Shown here: positions 9,112 through 25,040 of the stretch, piece by piece
How positions within the stretch are numbered: the stretch's first letter is position 1
How the letters are laid out: each line of letters starts with the position of its first letter
Source: Alistipes sp.
GTDB taxonomy: Bacteria > Bacteroidota > Bacteroidia > Bacteroidales > Rikenellaceae
DNA length: 64,000 nucleotides
Direction of reading: 5' to 3'
Assembly: GCA_017465575.1 (NCBI GenBank)
Contig: JAFTVX010000004.1
Coordinates: 33,986 to 97,985 of the forward strand
Translations under genes and position numbers: made by a program
The notes under the pieces: generated by a model
Told to the model about the DNA's origin: nothing
Seen by the model: the letters and a program-made list of their open reading frames with translations, nothing else
Database searches by the model: none

Positions 9112-9143
9112 ATTGGTTATTTGCGAATAATTCCTTACATTTG
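9112..9143 (+). promoter_or_regulatory. Promoter of structured RNA copy 1
   Basis: ATTG (9112-9115), 20-nt spacer, TACATTTG (9136-9143). It starts just after the transpeptidase stop codon. Transcription would begin near 9150. Confidence 0.65.
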
Positions 9144-9149
9144 CATAAA

Positions 9150-9388
9150 TTAAAATTTAATTGTTTTGCCTATGAAGCATAGCGTATAGTTGATACGCAC
9201 AATTTAGACATATTTGGAAAAGCGTTTTAGCTTTTATTCTGCTGCTCAGAAAGTTTGGCGACTAAAAAGACAGAAGGAATAATTGTTGAGATGCTCACGC
9301 TATGCGTGGGCTCTTCGTTGTATTATTCTGTCGGGTTACGCCAAACACCTCTGAGCGGGAGTACAACTTAGTCCCGCGCTTTTTTTTG
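9150..9388 (+). ncRNA. Structured non-coding RNA, copy 1 of 2 (6S-like / Bacteroidales-1 candidate)
   Basis: A promoter-to-terminator unit of about 240 nt without a credible ORF. Elements in order: hairpin GCGTAT/ATACGC (9182-9198); unpaired AGACATATTT (9206-9215); hairpin AAAAGC/GCTTTT (9218-9235); long rod of GCTCAGA/TCTGAGC (9244-9250 with 9350-9356), internal loop AAG/CACC, TTTGGCG/CGCCAAA (9254-9260 with 9339-9345), bubble ACTAAAAA/GGGTTA, then GACAGAA/TTCTGTC (9269-9275 with 9326-9332); apical hairpin CACGC/GCGTG (9296-9308). Copy 2 near 22.36 kb keeps the same order with changed but still paired stems. The rod with bubble is reminiscent of 6S RNA; this assignment is an inference and is untested. 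Confidence 0.7.
9355..9388 (+). terminator. Terminator of RNA copy 1
   Basis: GCGGGA/TCCCGC stem (9355-9360 and 9372-9377) followed by an uninterrupted T run (about 9380-9387). Confidence 0.85.
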
Positions 9389-9446
9389 TGCGTATATCAA
9401 TCAGTTGGGGCATATCTGAATGTAGAATATAAATCAAATGTTAAAT

Positions 9447-9812
9447 ATGAAAAAGCTATTAATGCCCTTCGTGGTAGCCATTATCGCAATCGTTTCATCA
9501 AGCTGTTCCGTATCATCTTATATGACGCAGAATACAAATGTAAATCAGACTAATGTGGTTTTGAGTGAGGCTAATTTCCATATAGTCAAAACAGTAAGTG
9601 CCGATGTTTCGCAGACCTATGTATTTGGTATCGGAGGTATCAGCAAGCGAGCACTGAAAAATAATGCAGTATCTGAATTGACAAAGAAAGCAGAACTTAC
9701 AGGTTCTCAGGCATTGGTGAATATCACTCTTCACGAGGATTTCAAAACAATATTATTCGTCAATAAGAGGACTATCCGTGCTCACGGCACAGTAGTCGAG
9801 TTTGAGAAATAG
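9447..9812 (+). CDS. Small lipoprotein, DUF6567-like
   Basis: 121 residues from the ATG at 9447 (MKKLL...); an in-frame ATG at 9438 would add three residues. It has a lipoprotein signal with VSSSC (Cys20 from 9447). The body NVNQTNVVLSEANFHIV, YVFGIGGISKRAL and LTGSQALVNITLHED resembles a family of small Bacteroidales lipoproteins (DUF6567-like, from memory). Function unknown; an envelope location is expected. It has no partner gene; the ncRNA terminator precedes it by about 60 nt and a long hairpin follows. Confidence 0.75.
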   Translation: MKKLLMPFVVAIIAIVSSSCSVSSYMTQNTNVNQTNVVLSEANFHIVKTVSADVSQTYVFGIGGISKRALKNNAVSELTKKAELTGSQALVNITLHEDFKTILFVNKRTIRAHGTVVEFEK

Positions 9813-22261: not shown

Positions 22262-22324
22262 ACTCTACAAAGTAGATGCTTATTTAATATTTAGATTTTT
22301 AGAGCTATATTTTGCCCTTGATAT

Positions 22325-22355
22325 TTTGTTAATTGAGAAAGTTTTTGTATATTTG
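22325..22355 (+). promoter_or_regulatory. Promoter of structured RNA copy 2
   Basis: TTTG (22325-22328), 19-nt spacer, TATATTTG (22348-22355); exact consensus. Transcription would start near 22361. Confidence 0.8.
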
Positions 22356-22360
22356 TATTG

Positions 22361-22607
22361 TCGGAGTGTATGCTCTCGGCAGACATATTTATTAGTGAAA
22401 GTGTTTCGCTAATCCTTGACAATAAAATTTGGCGATTTTAAGAACACAAGGGTTGCAGATCACTCACTTCTTGTATCGGTATGTATATGTCGGCACATTC
22501 TGTGTCCGCACCCCATACTGTACAAGTGTGGGGTTTTGTGTTTATTTGTGTTCGGGTTACGCCAAATACCTATTGTCAGATAAACGAGCATCTCCACACT
22601 TTCTTTT
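22361..22607 (+). ncRNA. Structured non-coding RNA, copy 2 of 2 (paralogue of 9150-9388)
   Basis: About 247 nt with the same order of parts as copy 1: AGACATATTT (22381-22390); hairpin TTAGTGAAA/TTTCGCTAA (22392-22412); rod of GACAATA/TATTGTC (22418-22424 with 22571-22577), loop AAA/TACC, TTTGGCG/CGCCAAA (22428-22434 with 22560-22566), bubble ATTTTAA/GGGTTA, GAACACAA/TTGTGTTC (22442-22449 with 22546-22553). The apical part is longer: CTTGTA/TACAAG, GTATG/CATAC and a CGGCACA hairpin. TCGGGTTACGCCAAAYACCT is identical in both copies while the flanking stems differ but stay paired. The end is at a T-rich tract near 22600. Confidence 0.7.
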
Positions 22608-22668
22608 TATAATCTATGCCGTTATAGGAGATGTGGCGGGAGGTAGTCGAGACTATCCCTGAAACAGT

Positions 22669-23898
22669 ATGAATCGCAAAGTGTTATCGTTATTCTCTGG
22701 TTGTGGAGGAATGGATATTGGCTTTGAAGGAGATTTCTTTTGTTTGAAGAAATCTATAAATACATCAATACACCCCGATTGGATAAAAGAGGATTGTGGT
22801 AATTGGGTGTTGTTATCTCCAACTGGATTTCAAACGGTTTTTGCTAACGATATTCGGGTAGATGCTAAAACCGCTTGGACAAAGTATTTCTCAAAAAGGA
22901 AGACGAATACAAATAGTATCTATCATTTAGGTAGTATTGTCGATTTGGTTAAAGCATCTAAACAAGGTGAAGATATCTTTCCTACTGATATAGATATTGT
23001 TACGGGTGGTTTCCCTTGTCAAGACTTCTCTATCGCAGGCAAAAGACAGGGTTTTGCATCGCAAAAAAGTCATACGGGTGGCAAGTTGGATATAGGCGCT
23101 CCCTCTATTGAAAGTAGAGGTCAGCTGTATATGTGGATGCGAGATGTGATATCTATTACAAAACCCAAACTATTTATTGCAGAAAATGTTAAAGGGTTGG
23201 CAGATTTGGCTGATGTTAAGGAGATTATAGAGAGAGATTTTGCCAATACTTGCAATTCGGGATATGTGGTAATTCCTGCACAAGTGTTATATGCAGCAGA
23301 CTATGGAGTACCGCAGTCTCGCAGTCGTGTGATATTCTTTGGATTTAAGAAAAGTGCTTTGAGAAAACAAGCATTGGAAGCATTGACAAGTGAGGTGATT
23401 CCAGTAAAGTATAATCCCTATCCAGTTAAAACTCACGGAATTGGCAATGTGCCGTATGTAACTTGTAGTGATGCCTTTATCAATTTAGATGAACCCAACA
23501 CCACTCTCGACCCATCGCAGAAGATATACTCGAAAGCAAAGTTTATGGGTTCGCATTGCCAAGGACAAACAGAGGTTAAATTGGATTCGGTTGGTCCAAC
23601 TATTAGAGCGGAACATCACGGAAATATTGAGTATAGAAGACTTTCGGCAGAGCACGGCGGTAAACATTCTGATGAGCTTGCTAAAGGTCTAATTGAAAGG
23701 AGATTAACCGTTAGAGAGTGCGCACGAATACAAACATTTCCAGATGACTATGAGTTTATTATTCCCAAAAGCGAAAGTCAACCATCGTTAAGCTCAAGTG
23801 ATGCGTATAAGATTATAGGTAATGCTGTCCCTTGTGTATTGGCATATAATATTGCTAAAAATATTGCAGATAAGTGGAATCTATACTTTAAGCTATGA
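22669..23898 (+). CDS. DNA (cytosine-5)-methyltransferase, type II modification enzyme
   Basis: 409 residues with all core C5-methyltransferase motifs: SAM-binding LSLFSGCGGMDIGF (7-19), catalytic GGFPCQDFS with Cys117, AENVKGL (171-177), GVPQSRSRV (213-221), RRLTVRECARIQTFPDDY and the final KIIGNAVPCVLAYNIA. The target-recognition region lies at about 245-345. It overlaps the following endonuclease gene by 4 bp (ATGA). The pair is clearly AT-richer in its third positions than mutS and recD next door, which suggests lateral acquisition. The recognition sequence cannot be read. Confidence 0.96.
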   Translation: MNRKVLSLFSGCGGMDIGFEGDFFCLKKSINTSIHPDWIKEDCGNWVLLSPTGFQTVFANDIRVDAKTAWTKYFSKRKTNTNSIYHLGSIVDLVKASKQGEDIFPTDIDIVTGGFPCQDFSIAGKRQGFASQKSHTGGKLDIGAPSIESRGQLYMWMRDVISITKPKLFIAENVKGLADLADVKEIIERDFANTCNSGYVVIPAQVLYAADYGVPQSRSRVIFFGFKKSALRKQALEALTSEVIPVKYNPYPVKTHGIGNVPYVTCSDAFINLDEPNTTLDPSQKIYSKAKFMGSHCQGQTEVKLDSVGPTIRAEHHGNIEYRRLSAEHGGKHSDELAKGLIERRLTVRECARIQTFPDDYEFIIPKSESQPSLSSSDAYKIIGNAVPCVLAYNIAKNIADKWNLYFKL

Positions 23899-24959
23899 TA
23901 GTTTTAGATAATCCCAAGCCTACGGTAAATGAGTTTAGAGAGTTGATGAGCAATGTTGACAAATCATTAAATCATAGCGCCAACAGAAATTCATCATATT
24001 TTCTTAAACGCAGTGGAACTGATTTAGAAAAGGATGTCCGAGATGCAGCCATTGAGTGTGCCAAGCATACTAAATTTGAGGGTAGTATTCAATTAGTTTC
24101 GGGAATCTCTTTCCCTGATATTGTTGCGTCTAAATATTTTGGAATAGAGGTAAAGAGTTCTCTATCGAATAATTGGAAAACAATCGGAAACTCAATTTTG
24201 GAAACGACAAGAGTCGATGAAATTGAAAGGGTATTCTTAACTTTTGGCAAATTAGGTCAACCTGTTGAGTTTCTTTCGCGACCGTATGAGGAGTGTTTGT
24301 CGGGTGTCGCTGTTACTCACTACCCAAGATATCAAATAGATATGTCGCTTAAAGAGGGCGAGTCGATATTTGATAAGATGGGTATTGAATATGATGAGTT
24401 TCGCAGTATGTCTAATCCAGTAACATCTGTTGCTGAATACTATAAATCACAACTAAAGCAAGGCGAGAGTTTGTGGTGGGCAGGAGGAAAAAACGAATCA
24501 ATACCTATAACTGCGAGATTGTGGCGAACTTTGAAAGCCTCCGAAAAGGATGAATTAGAAGCCACTATATATGTCTATTTTCCCGAAACAATTATGTCAA
24601 GGAATCAATTTAAGTATGACCGAGCAACATTATGGTTGGCAACACAGAAAGGTATAATCAATGCAAATGTCCGAGATTCCTTCTCTTCTGGTGGTAGGGA
24701 GATAATGAAAACAATAGATGGTCGCTATGTGGAGATGCCAGCAGTTTTTAGGAAAATTGCTGAGCACATAGACTATATTGGTGAGATATTGGCGTTTACG
24801 CCGTCTTCGGTATTTGTTGATAATTGGGGTGGAAAAATTCAATCAAATAGGGTAAAACAATGGATAAACCTTGTCATAAGCGAAACTAATGATTTATCTA
24901 TGCGGAGAAATGCAAAAGGAGTATTGGAAAAAATATTTAATGATGCAGATTTGTTATAA
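23895..24959 (+). CDS. Type II restriction endonuclease (PD-(D/E)xK)
   Basis: 354 residues. The nuclease core is FPDIVASKYFGIEVKSS: Asp75, then Glu85-Val-Lys87, the classical PD-D/E-x-K arrangement, preceded by an acidic helix (GTDLEKDVRDAA). Start by ATGA overlap with the methyltransferase stop. The rest (about 150-354) shows no family I can name and probably holds the target-recognition and dimerisation parts. It should cut unmethylated DNA at the site protected by the partner. Confidence 0.85.
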   Translation: MIVLDNPKPTVNEFRELMSNVDKSLNHSANRNSSYFLKRSGTDLEKDVRDAAIECAKHTKFEGSIQLVSGISFPDIVASKYFGIEVKSSLSNNWKTIGNSILETTRVDEIERVFLTFGKLGQPVEFLSRPYEECLSGVAVTHYPRYQIDMSLKEGESIFDKMGIEYDEFRSMSNPVTSVAEYYKSQLKQGESLWWAGGKNESIPITARLWRTLKASEKDELEATIYVYFPETIMSRNQFKYDRATLWLATQKGIINANVRDSFSSGGREIMKTIDGRYVEMPAVFRKIAEHIDYIGEILAFTPSSVFVDNWGGKIQSNRVKQWINLVISETNDLSMRRNAKGVLEKIFNDADLL

Positions 24960-25006
24960 TGTTTGTTGTTATTTGTTGCATTTGAGCAATAGATAATCAT
25001 TTGAAG

Positions 25007-25040
25007 AAAAAGGTTTTAGCGTGTGTGCTAAAACCTTTTT
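25007..25040. terminator. Bidirectional terminator between the R-M pair and the recD-like gene
   Basis: GGTTTTAGC/GCTAAAACC (25012-25020 and 25027-25035) flanked by an A run and a T run, so it can serve both converging genes. Confidence 0.85.

Follow-up and report, generated by a model that had tools for sequence, protein, structure and literature searches.

The DNA analysed here, a window of 64,000 nucleotides from an Alistipes genome (the genus in the GTDB sense), contains two structured RNAs 13 kb apart, and it raises the question of whether these are free-standing RNAs of the 6S kind or belong to the genes that follow them. Our main reading, to which we give a probability of about 0.6, is that both copies are members of one multicopy family of portable, cis-acting leaders that conditionally attenuate the downstream gene. 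These leaders are long and strongly folded, and the family to which both RNAs belong has apparently not yet been catalogued.

Reading of the sequence confirmed the rod shared by the two copies, with the coordinates and pairings claimed in the original prediction (Table 1), and the outer and inner stems do differ between the copies by changes that are compensated on the opposite strand. The statement that the unit holds no ORF overlooked, for copy 1, a five-codon ORF (ATG AAG CAT AGC GTA TAG) at 9172-9189. The promoter-to-terminator unit is better described as a promoter with a 5′ leader in which the U-run is a possible attenuator. The element does not end at the U-run, as class A has conserved partners for pairing on its far side. 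Copy 1 (9150-9388) folds at -77.8 kcal/mol (z -4.6) and copy 2 (22361-22612) at -84.0 kcal/mol (z -6.4), and for neither copy did any of 200 shuffles reach so low an energy. Within the window, a two-strand pattern (TTTGGCG..GGGTTACGCCAAA with a gap of 60-90 nt) matches copy 1 alone, with 0 matches expected; copy 2 is missed because its gap is longer. A 13-base core is exact in both RNA copies, but is not rare once two mismatches are allowed (3 matches in the window versus 1.2 expected, with 9 of 100 shuffles reaching 3).

Table 1. Features of the two copies and their surroundings, in window coordinates.
Feature	Position	Strand	Basis
Copy 1 promoter-like boxes: TTGG 9113-9116; TACATTTG (-7, TAnnTTTG) 9136-9143	9113..9143	+	sequence
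Copy 1 uORF, MKHSV*	9172..9189	+	start and stop kept in relatives
Copy 1 5′ hairpin GCGTAT/ATACGC (9182-9187/9193-9198)	9182..9200	+	
Copy 1 TACGCAC, with alternative partner GTGCGTA 9388-9394	9194-9200	+	long-range helix, class A alignment
Copy 1 GACATATT and AAAAGC/GCTTTT hairpin	9207..9235	+	conserved blocks in two alignments (A2, A6)
Copy 1 rod (three stems, outer to inner; internal loops AAG/CACC and CTAAAAA/GGGTTA)	9244..9356	+	
Copy 1 outer stem (GCTCAGA/TCTGAGC)	9244-9250/9350-9356	+	sequence
Copy 1 middle stem TTTGGCG/CGCCAAA	9254-9260/9339-9345	+	sequence
Copy 1 inner stem	9269-9275/9326-9332	+	sequence
Copy 1 apical hairpin GCTCACGC/GCGTGGGC	9293..9311	+	helix 4 of class A alignment
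Copy 1 GGGTTA bubble strand	9333-9338	+	sequence
Copy 1 tail GTCCC-GCGC and U-run (9380-9387), candidate attenuator	9371..9387	+	sequence
Copy 1 beyond the U-run: GTGCGTA 9388-9394, GGGGC 9407-9411	9388..9411	+	family-wide helix
Copy 1 downstream gene, DUF6567 lipoprotein-like protein	9438..9812 (start may be 9447)	+	Pfam PF20205, E 6.2e-33
Copy 2 unit without counterpart in relatives: promoter, leader, methyltransferase, second ORF	22266..25040 (limits approximate)	+	
Copy 2 -7-like box TATATTTG	22348..22355	+	sequence
Copy 2 leader, comprising GACATATT, a hairpin and a rod whose apical arm is long	22382..22591	+	
Copy 2 outer stem (GACAATA/TATTGTC)	22418-22424/22571-22577	+	sequence
Copy 2 middle stem	22428-22434/22560-22566	+	sequence
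Copy 2 inner stem	22442-22449/22546-22553	+	sequence
Copy 2 GGGTTA strand	22554-22559	+	sequence
Copy 2 tail CTCCACAC (22592-22599) and U-rich run	22589..22633	+	sequence
Copy 2 downstream gene, C5-cytosine DNA methyltransferase	22669..23898	+	Pfam PF00145, E 1.4e-50
Second ORF of copy 2 operon	23895..24959	+	no Pfam family; restriction partner by position only

The core pattern was used to find ten sequences, both window copies included, from which a covariance model (R1) was built, and its matches gave a second model (R2); E-values are rough for both. Sequences left out as unrelated-looking were L003-L006 (own genome, one mismatch) and L007, L008, L015, L016 and L019 (relatives). R2 matches copy 1 at 9207-9370 (154.4 bits) and copy 2 at 22386-22591 (88.5 bits). 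With R1, the own genome has 10 matches at E 0.015 or better, the next three (E above 2) looking unrelated, and 172 of 180 same-genus genomes have a match at E up to 0.01; the largest count in a genus genome, 15, equals the number of candidates scored. In the wider phylum, 30 of 392 sampled Bacteroidota genomes match R2. Copy numbers are lower bounds, because filters were strict and 15 (genus) or 7 (phylum sample) candidates were scored per genome, and antisense shadows may sit among the family counts. A longer core pattern occurs in at least 120 stretches of named genomes, mostly Bacteroidales, with one match in Chryseobacterium candidae among the matches listed, and R1 matches 98 of 100 sources of this pattern (the exceptions are L096 and L187). 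Carriage by phages was considered and rejected, as a pattern search of viral_contigs gave nothing for the exact core pattern.

Rows removed before the analyses of position and neighbourhood were 3 + 4 antisense shadows with low scores, L071 (from the L010 record) and L170 (off the contig end), and 180 rows remained; leaving out 10 rows whose downstream sequence is shorter than 450 nt, as well as 6 duplicates, gave 164 copies. Two copies from one genome resemble each other no more (median identity 0.38) than two from different genomes (0.39). Two loci, L208 (1201-1401 and 1552-1750, minus strand) and L223 (1201-1386 and 1883-2062, minus strand), each hold two same-strand leader copies a few hundred bases apart.

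That the rod is a functional, covarying RNA fold, as had been predicted, is strongly supported by the class A and genus alignments. In the genus alignment (86 distinct rows) the five helices keep 94.1% of cells paired, and covariation among homologues was found, with a score of 0.666 compared with 0.210 in shuffles (0 of 500 reach it) and at most 0.145 when partners are slid; each of the 21 pairs in the three stems of the rod varies on both sides. This alignment (A3) was fitted to the structure of the model, which favours that structure, and includes three antisense shadows (alignment A4 keeps four); its further pair types number 81 versus 77.5, with 53 of 500 shuffles reaching the 81. With fixed offsets and no model, the outer stem is paired at 0.954 in class A (69 sequences) versus 0.610 with partners re-dealt, and at 0.902 in class B (51 sequences) versus 0.518. 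The covariation score in 35 full-length class A sequences is 0.354 versus 0.155; the middle stem is invariant in alignment A6 because the sequences were picked by it. In the 35 class A sequences the apical hairpin (helix 4) is 97.5% paired, with 5 of 8 pairs changed on both sides and U-G the commonest pair at one position (31 of 35), and the long-range TACGCAC/GTGCGTA helix, the second partner of which lies past the U-run, has 98.0% of cells paired and one pair changed on both sides. The constant parts of the rod are an A-rich loop opposite RCC and a bubble with GGG or near on its 3′ strand, while the letters of the stems vary freely.

Genes on the same strand follow nearly all copies. In 152 of the 164 non-duplicate copies (12 are without one), a same-strand ORF of at least 60 aa begins no more than 300 nt after the model match ends, at a median distance of 98 nt and within 150 nt in 132, and ORFs of at least 100 aa lie behind 139 of 164 copies on the same strand versus 10 in convergent orientation; a divergent one lies upstream in 51 of 153. 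In the own genome 10 of 10 copies have a same-strand ORF of at least 60 aa, and in the phylum sample 22 of 29 do, the figures for at least 100 aa and for convergent ORFs being 18 of 29 and 1 of 29. As judged from sequence, action of the RNA in cis on the following gene is well supported, and the RNA does not look free-standing.

The genes themselves are diverse and share no common pathway. From 158 downstream ORFs, 145 proteins were scanned (most of the other 13 being duplicates or dubious as ORFs), and these fall into 70 Pfam families, none found in more than 4. Many look, by the start of their sequence, like small secreted proteins or lipoproteins, and a minority are methyltransferases, other parts of restriction-modification systems, HTH proteins or DprA-like proteins, although the names given by PADLOC and NCBIfam come in several cases from broad matches to methyltransferases or repeats and do not denote functions. 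CRISPR, retron and transposon guide RNA, considered in passing, did not stand out among the best 25 families in each tally of downstream proteins (out of 70 Pfam, 85 NCBIfam and 273 PADLOC families). Three related DprA-like genes of the own genome (L065, L066 and L067, on contigs C27, C30 and C24) each lie behind their own leader, with the ATG at the very end of the U-run; that of L065 scores 27.1 bits against PF02481, just under the cut-off of 29.6. In L261, L262, L269, L271, L275 and L277, all from one genus in the same class, a protein whose start presumably resembles SusC/TonB-type transporters is encoded about 215-260 nt behind the leader.

At the 5′ end, the 90 nt upstream of the RNA contain the motif TAnnTTTG in 55 of 66 copies of class A, where 5.0 would be expected, and 33 of 50 class B copies have one as well (2.2 expected). 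We take this motif to be the -7 box of the sigma-ABfr type, which the boxes at 9136-9143 and 22348-22355 fit. A GCCTATG context is readable in 69 of 70 class A copies (L145 is cut off), and a stop follows 1-5 codons after the ATG in 68 of 69, the encoded peptides being mostly MKH* (20), MKHSV* (19) and MKHCV* (9); these counts are for class A, whereas copy 2 belongs to class B. Conservation of the uORF is partly tied to a hairpin that overlaps it; L126, L164 and L166, however, keep the stop although their hairpin seems by eye to be disrupted, and the class A uORF is probably real. An extra conserved stretch, GCGGAATACGCAGTGTTTTAGATGGCATTTAGG or near, precedes the class A leader in L009, L011, L036, L038 and L192, and is similar to the sequence with which the L063 copy has its 5′ portion.

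At the 3′ end, the class A sequences carry GTNCC before the U-run, pairing with GGNAC past it, and the middle position takes all four standard pairs. In copy 1 the corresponding partners are GTCCC (9371-9375) and GGGGC (9407-9411), a weak match there. In copy 2 the tail can pair with GTGTGGGG (22526-22533), and CATCTCC (22589-22595) can alternatively pair with GGAGATG (22627-22633); downstream partners like this one were read by eye in L010, L060, L148 and L175. The helix between the tail and the apical arm averages 5.49 of 8 Watson-Crick pairs in class A versus 5.28 with tails re-dealt (largest of 200: 5.44), and 5.93 in class B versus 5.67 (largest 5.93). This adds little beyond conserved letters, and as a covarying helix the terminator-like helix is weak; of the two mutually exclusive helices that an attenuator would use, the tail-downstream helix covaries and the tail-apical helix hardly does.

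Between the U-run and the ORF, class A leaders can carry a 3′ element, GGAGTAACC-GAAAAGCC-GAGTAGG, that matches the Rfam family DUF805b. In 20 loci, chosen partly for showing this element, there were 12 matches at E <= 0.5, of which 9 were below 0.001 and one, L038 with 38.8 bits, exceeded the gathering score of 35.6; eight further loci of this set scored 28.6-35.0 bits. In L160 the match has 29.2 bits (E 2.1e-6). Another scan of 15 loci gave no DUF805b match over the gathering score, and by the Rfam model both window copies are without the element. A loose letter pattern finds it in 42 of 69 class A copies.

These features suggest how a leader of this kind might work. The order of parts, shown by comparison, is promoter-like box, class A uORF, three-stem rod with two conserved internal loops, apical hairpin, tail, U-run, the class A partners of the 5′ end and of the tail, and start codon. 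The tail and the 3′ arm of the apical hairpin would close a terminator-like helix just before the U-run, or the tail would alternatively pair with a partner across it. If the uORF is translated, this could melt the 5′ hairpin, so that TACGCAC becomes available to its long-range partner, and a ligand or protein at the two conserved internal loops, which we infer to be the natural site for one, would set the balance. Conditional attenuation is inferred from a U-run with a competing tail, and the switch mechanism and its signal are likewise conjectural. Against an attenuating leader stand the points that the tail-apical helix hardly covaries, that the genes have no common pathway, that 12 of 164 copies are not followed by a same-strand ORF, that orthologous genes are often without the leader and that the DUF805b-like element is missing from both window copies.

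The leader could instead be a cis-acting 5′ UTR that is not a switch, a portable device for reliable translation, mRNA stability or insulation of accessory genes. The accessory nature and many kinds of the downstream genes (70 Pfam families among 145 proteins), the uORF near the 5′ end and the placement of the module just downstream of different promoters all agree with such a role, but the competing helices and U-run look like a regulatory platform and the Rfam cis-regulatory DUF805b-like element follows many class A copies, and we consider this alternative unlikely.

A stand-alone, trans-acting sRNA ending at the U-run (6S-like or another protein-binding RNA), with the genes as mere neighbours, appears improbable. 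It would account for the own promoter-like box (55 of 66 class A copies), the U-run, the very stable rod and a bubble reminiscent of 6S, and also for the genus of the same class in which the next long ORF is often about 215-260 nt away. It does not sit well with same-strand ORFs behind nearly all copies and convergent ones behind almost none, with conserved pairing that crosses the U-run, with the lack of a match to 6S models or with ten diverged copies in one genome. 6S RNA is free-standing and has one or a few copies per genome; it binds RNA polymerase and serves as the template for pRNA. The copy number and position here are unlike that, with 10 good matches in the own genome and a same-strand ORF behind 152 of 164 family copies.

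The identity with 6S or Bacteroidales-1 that had been suggested is accordingly rejected on the Rfam models, the copy number and the position before genes. Neither copy reaches any Rfam gathering score, the only window matches above gathering being three tRNAs; a search extended to E 10 yielded 6 and 5 weak matches in the two regions, all far below the cut-off and none of the 6S kind, with no match to 6S or Bacteroidales-1. In the own genome and 36 other genus genomes, RF01693, RF00013 and RF01685 gave no match at E <= 0.001 in a search with strict filters and limited candidates, in which a diverged 6S could be missed; RF01693 matched 5 of 24 other Bacteroidales genomes in the same search, which therefore worked. 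The 6S RNA of the genus is thus unaccounted for by these three models in the 37 genomes, and may be diverged. Weak 6S-Flavo matches were seen in two other Bacteroidales (L025, 42.9 bits, and L026, 35.8 bits; cut-off 85), which by eye share AAACTCAAC motifs with Bacteroidales-1 loci.

Another multicopy RNA of the order, FopS, was rejected on architecture, both copies being long rods, and no FopS match appeared in the Rfam scans of the two copies (up to E 10). FopS is described as a family of multicopy paralogous sRNAs of Bacteroides, deposited in Rfam, made up of a single-stranded 5′ stretch and a terminator hairpin and acting in trans on other mRNAs (PMC11697453). Literature searches on Bacteroidales 6S RNAs, FopS/RbpB, Bacteroidetes leaders and DUF805/DUF805b gave no recognised description of the present RNA (PMC2864571, PMC7366714, PMC11697453, PMC8040213), a fragment of which may already stand in supplementary lists of candidates.

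Comparison with relatives bears on the portability of the leader. Six relatives (L292, L295, L296, L297, L298 and L300) hold the same pair of genes as the copy 1 locus but lack the RNA there; L292 shows a 16-bit match at E 0.63, L298 carries another leader of about 250 nt, and the promoter of L297 resembles by eye that of copy 1. Among 30 loci of lipoprotein homologues, R1 matches upstream (E < 0.01) in 9 and in none of the other 21. Presence and absence at this site may reflect either gain or loss. At the copy 2 locus, where the RNA heads an inserted DNA-methyltransferase operon, mutS adjoins a helicase-like gene in relatives. The site was read as empty in L235, L237, L238, L249 and L251, where BLAST ends lie 46-63 nt apart (the true gap is smaller in L249 and L251, in which the mutS match begins at residue 21), and L233 has a 420-nt gap of other sequence between the two genes. 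Of six methyltransferase loci, two carry the RNA (the own one and that of G092) and four have no match at E < 0.01.

Near-identical modules were also found in different contexts. L009, L029, L031 and L032, from four genomes, are 91-95% alike over 227-244 bp, essentially the RNA, and diverge on both sides of it; L036, L038 and L192, from three genomes, have a core 99% alike and share 329-383 bp including the promoter region; L195 and L197, from one genome, share 338 bp at 89%. The downstream proteins compared within each set gave no BLASTP match at E <= 0.01, the best value among compared proteins being 0.087, for L009 with L038 of different sets. Near-identical modules before unrelated proteins indicate that the RNA moves partly independently of the gene, and the leader would then be portable, a module able to take up a position between a promoter and an unrelated gene. 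A bolder version, which we regard as rather unlikely, is a mobile, non-autonomous 5′-UTR element of about 230 nt, from uORF to U-run, copied between the promoters and start codons of unrelated Bacteroidota genes, possibly by reverse transcription of its own terminated transcript, and placing accessory genes (surface lipoproteins, DNA-methyltransferase operons) under one RNA switch. A mobile DNA element without any RNA role, the fold of which acts as single-stranded DNA in transposition or recombination, would explain the sharp module limits in L029, L032, L031 and L009, the presence and absence at a syntenic site and the long-range inverted repeat TACGCAC/GTGCGTA, but is very unlikely given the near-constant orientation towards the gene, the predominance of U-G at one apical position (31 of 35) as expected of RNA, the lack of a demonstrated target duplication and the age of most within-genome copies (median identity 0.38).

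If the portable, attenuating leader is the correct reading, a large family whose rod matches no Rfam entry, and which occurs in 172 of the 180 genomes of a single gut genus with a scattered distribution elsewhere in Bacteroidota, would bring surface proteins and DNA-modification systems under one RNA-level control. The conserved uORF of 1-5 codons would be an added feature of this family, and the known 35-nt DUF805b motif would be, in many copies, the last piece of a much larger leader. The near-identical RNAs before unrelated genes make the spread of regulatory leaders testable.

Leader-ORF attenuators and transcription-terminating riboswitches have a 5′ leader, alternative pairings and a U-run ahead of the gene. 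The present family resembles such systems in these points, its alternative pairings being putative, and in a short uORF, but its uORF has 1-5 codons, its downstream genes have no common pathway and the leader recurs before unrelated genes. With 6S, 6S-Flavo and Bacteroidales-1 (RF00013, RF01685, RF01693) it has in common a long rod, an internal bubble, a promoter and a U-run, and it differs from them in its many copies per genome, its place before genes, its pairing beyond the U-run and the absence of a model match. It is like FopS in that Bacteroidales genomes hold roughly a dozen or more paralogues each, whereas FopS is a 5′ seed with a terminator hairpin and the RNA described here is a long rod within a leader. 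The 3′ ends of many class A copies match the full 35 positions of DUF805b (RF02914, clan CL00115, Cis-reg); DUF805b consists of those 35 positions only, and to them the leader adds, upstream, a uORF, a rod, a U-run and long-range helices.
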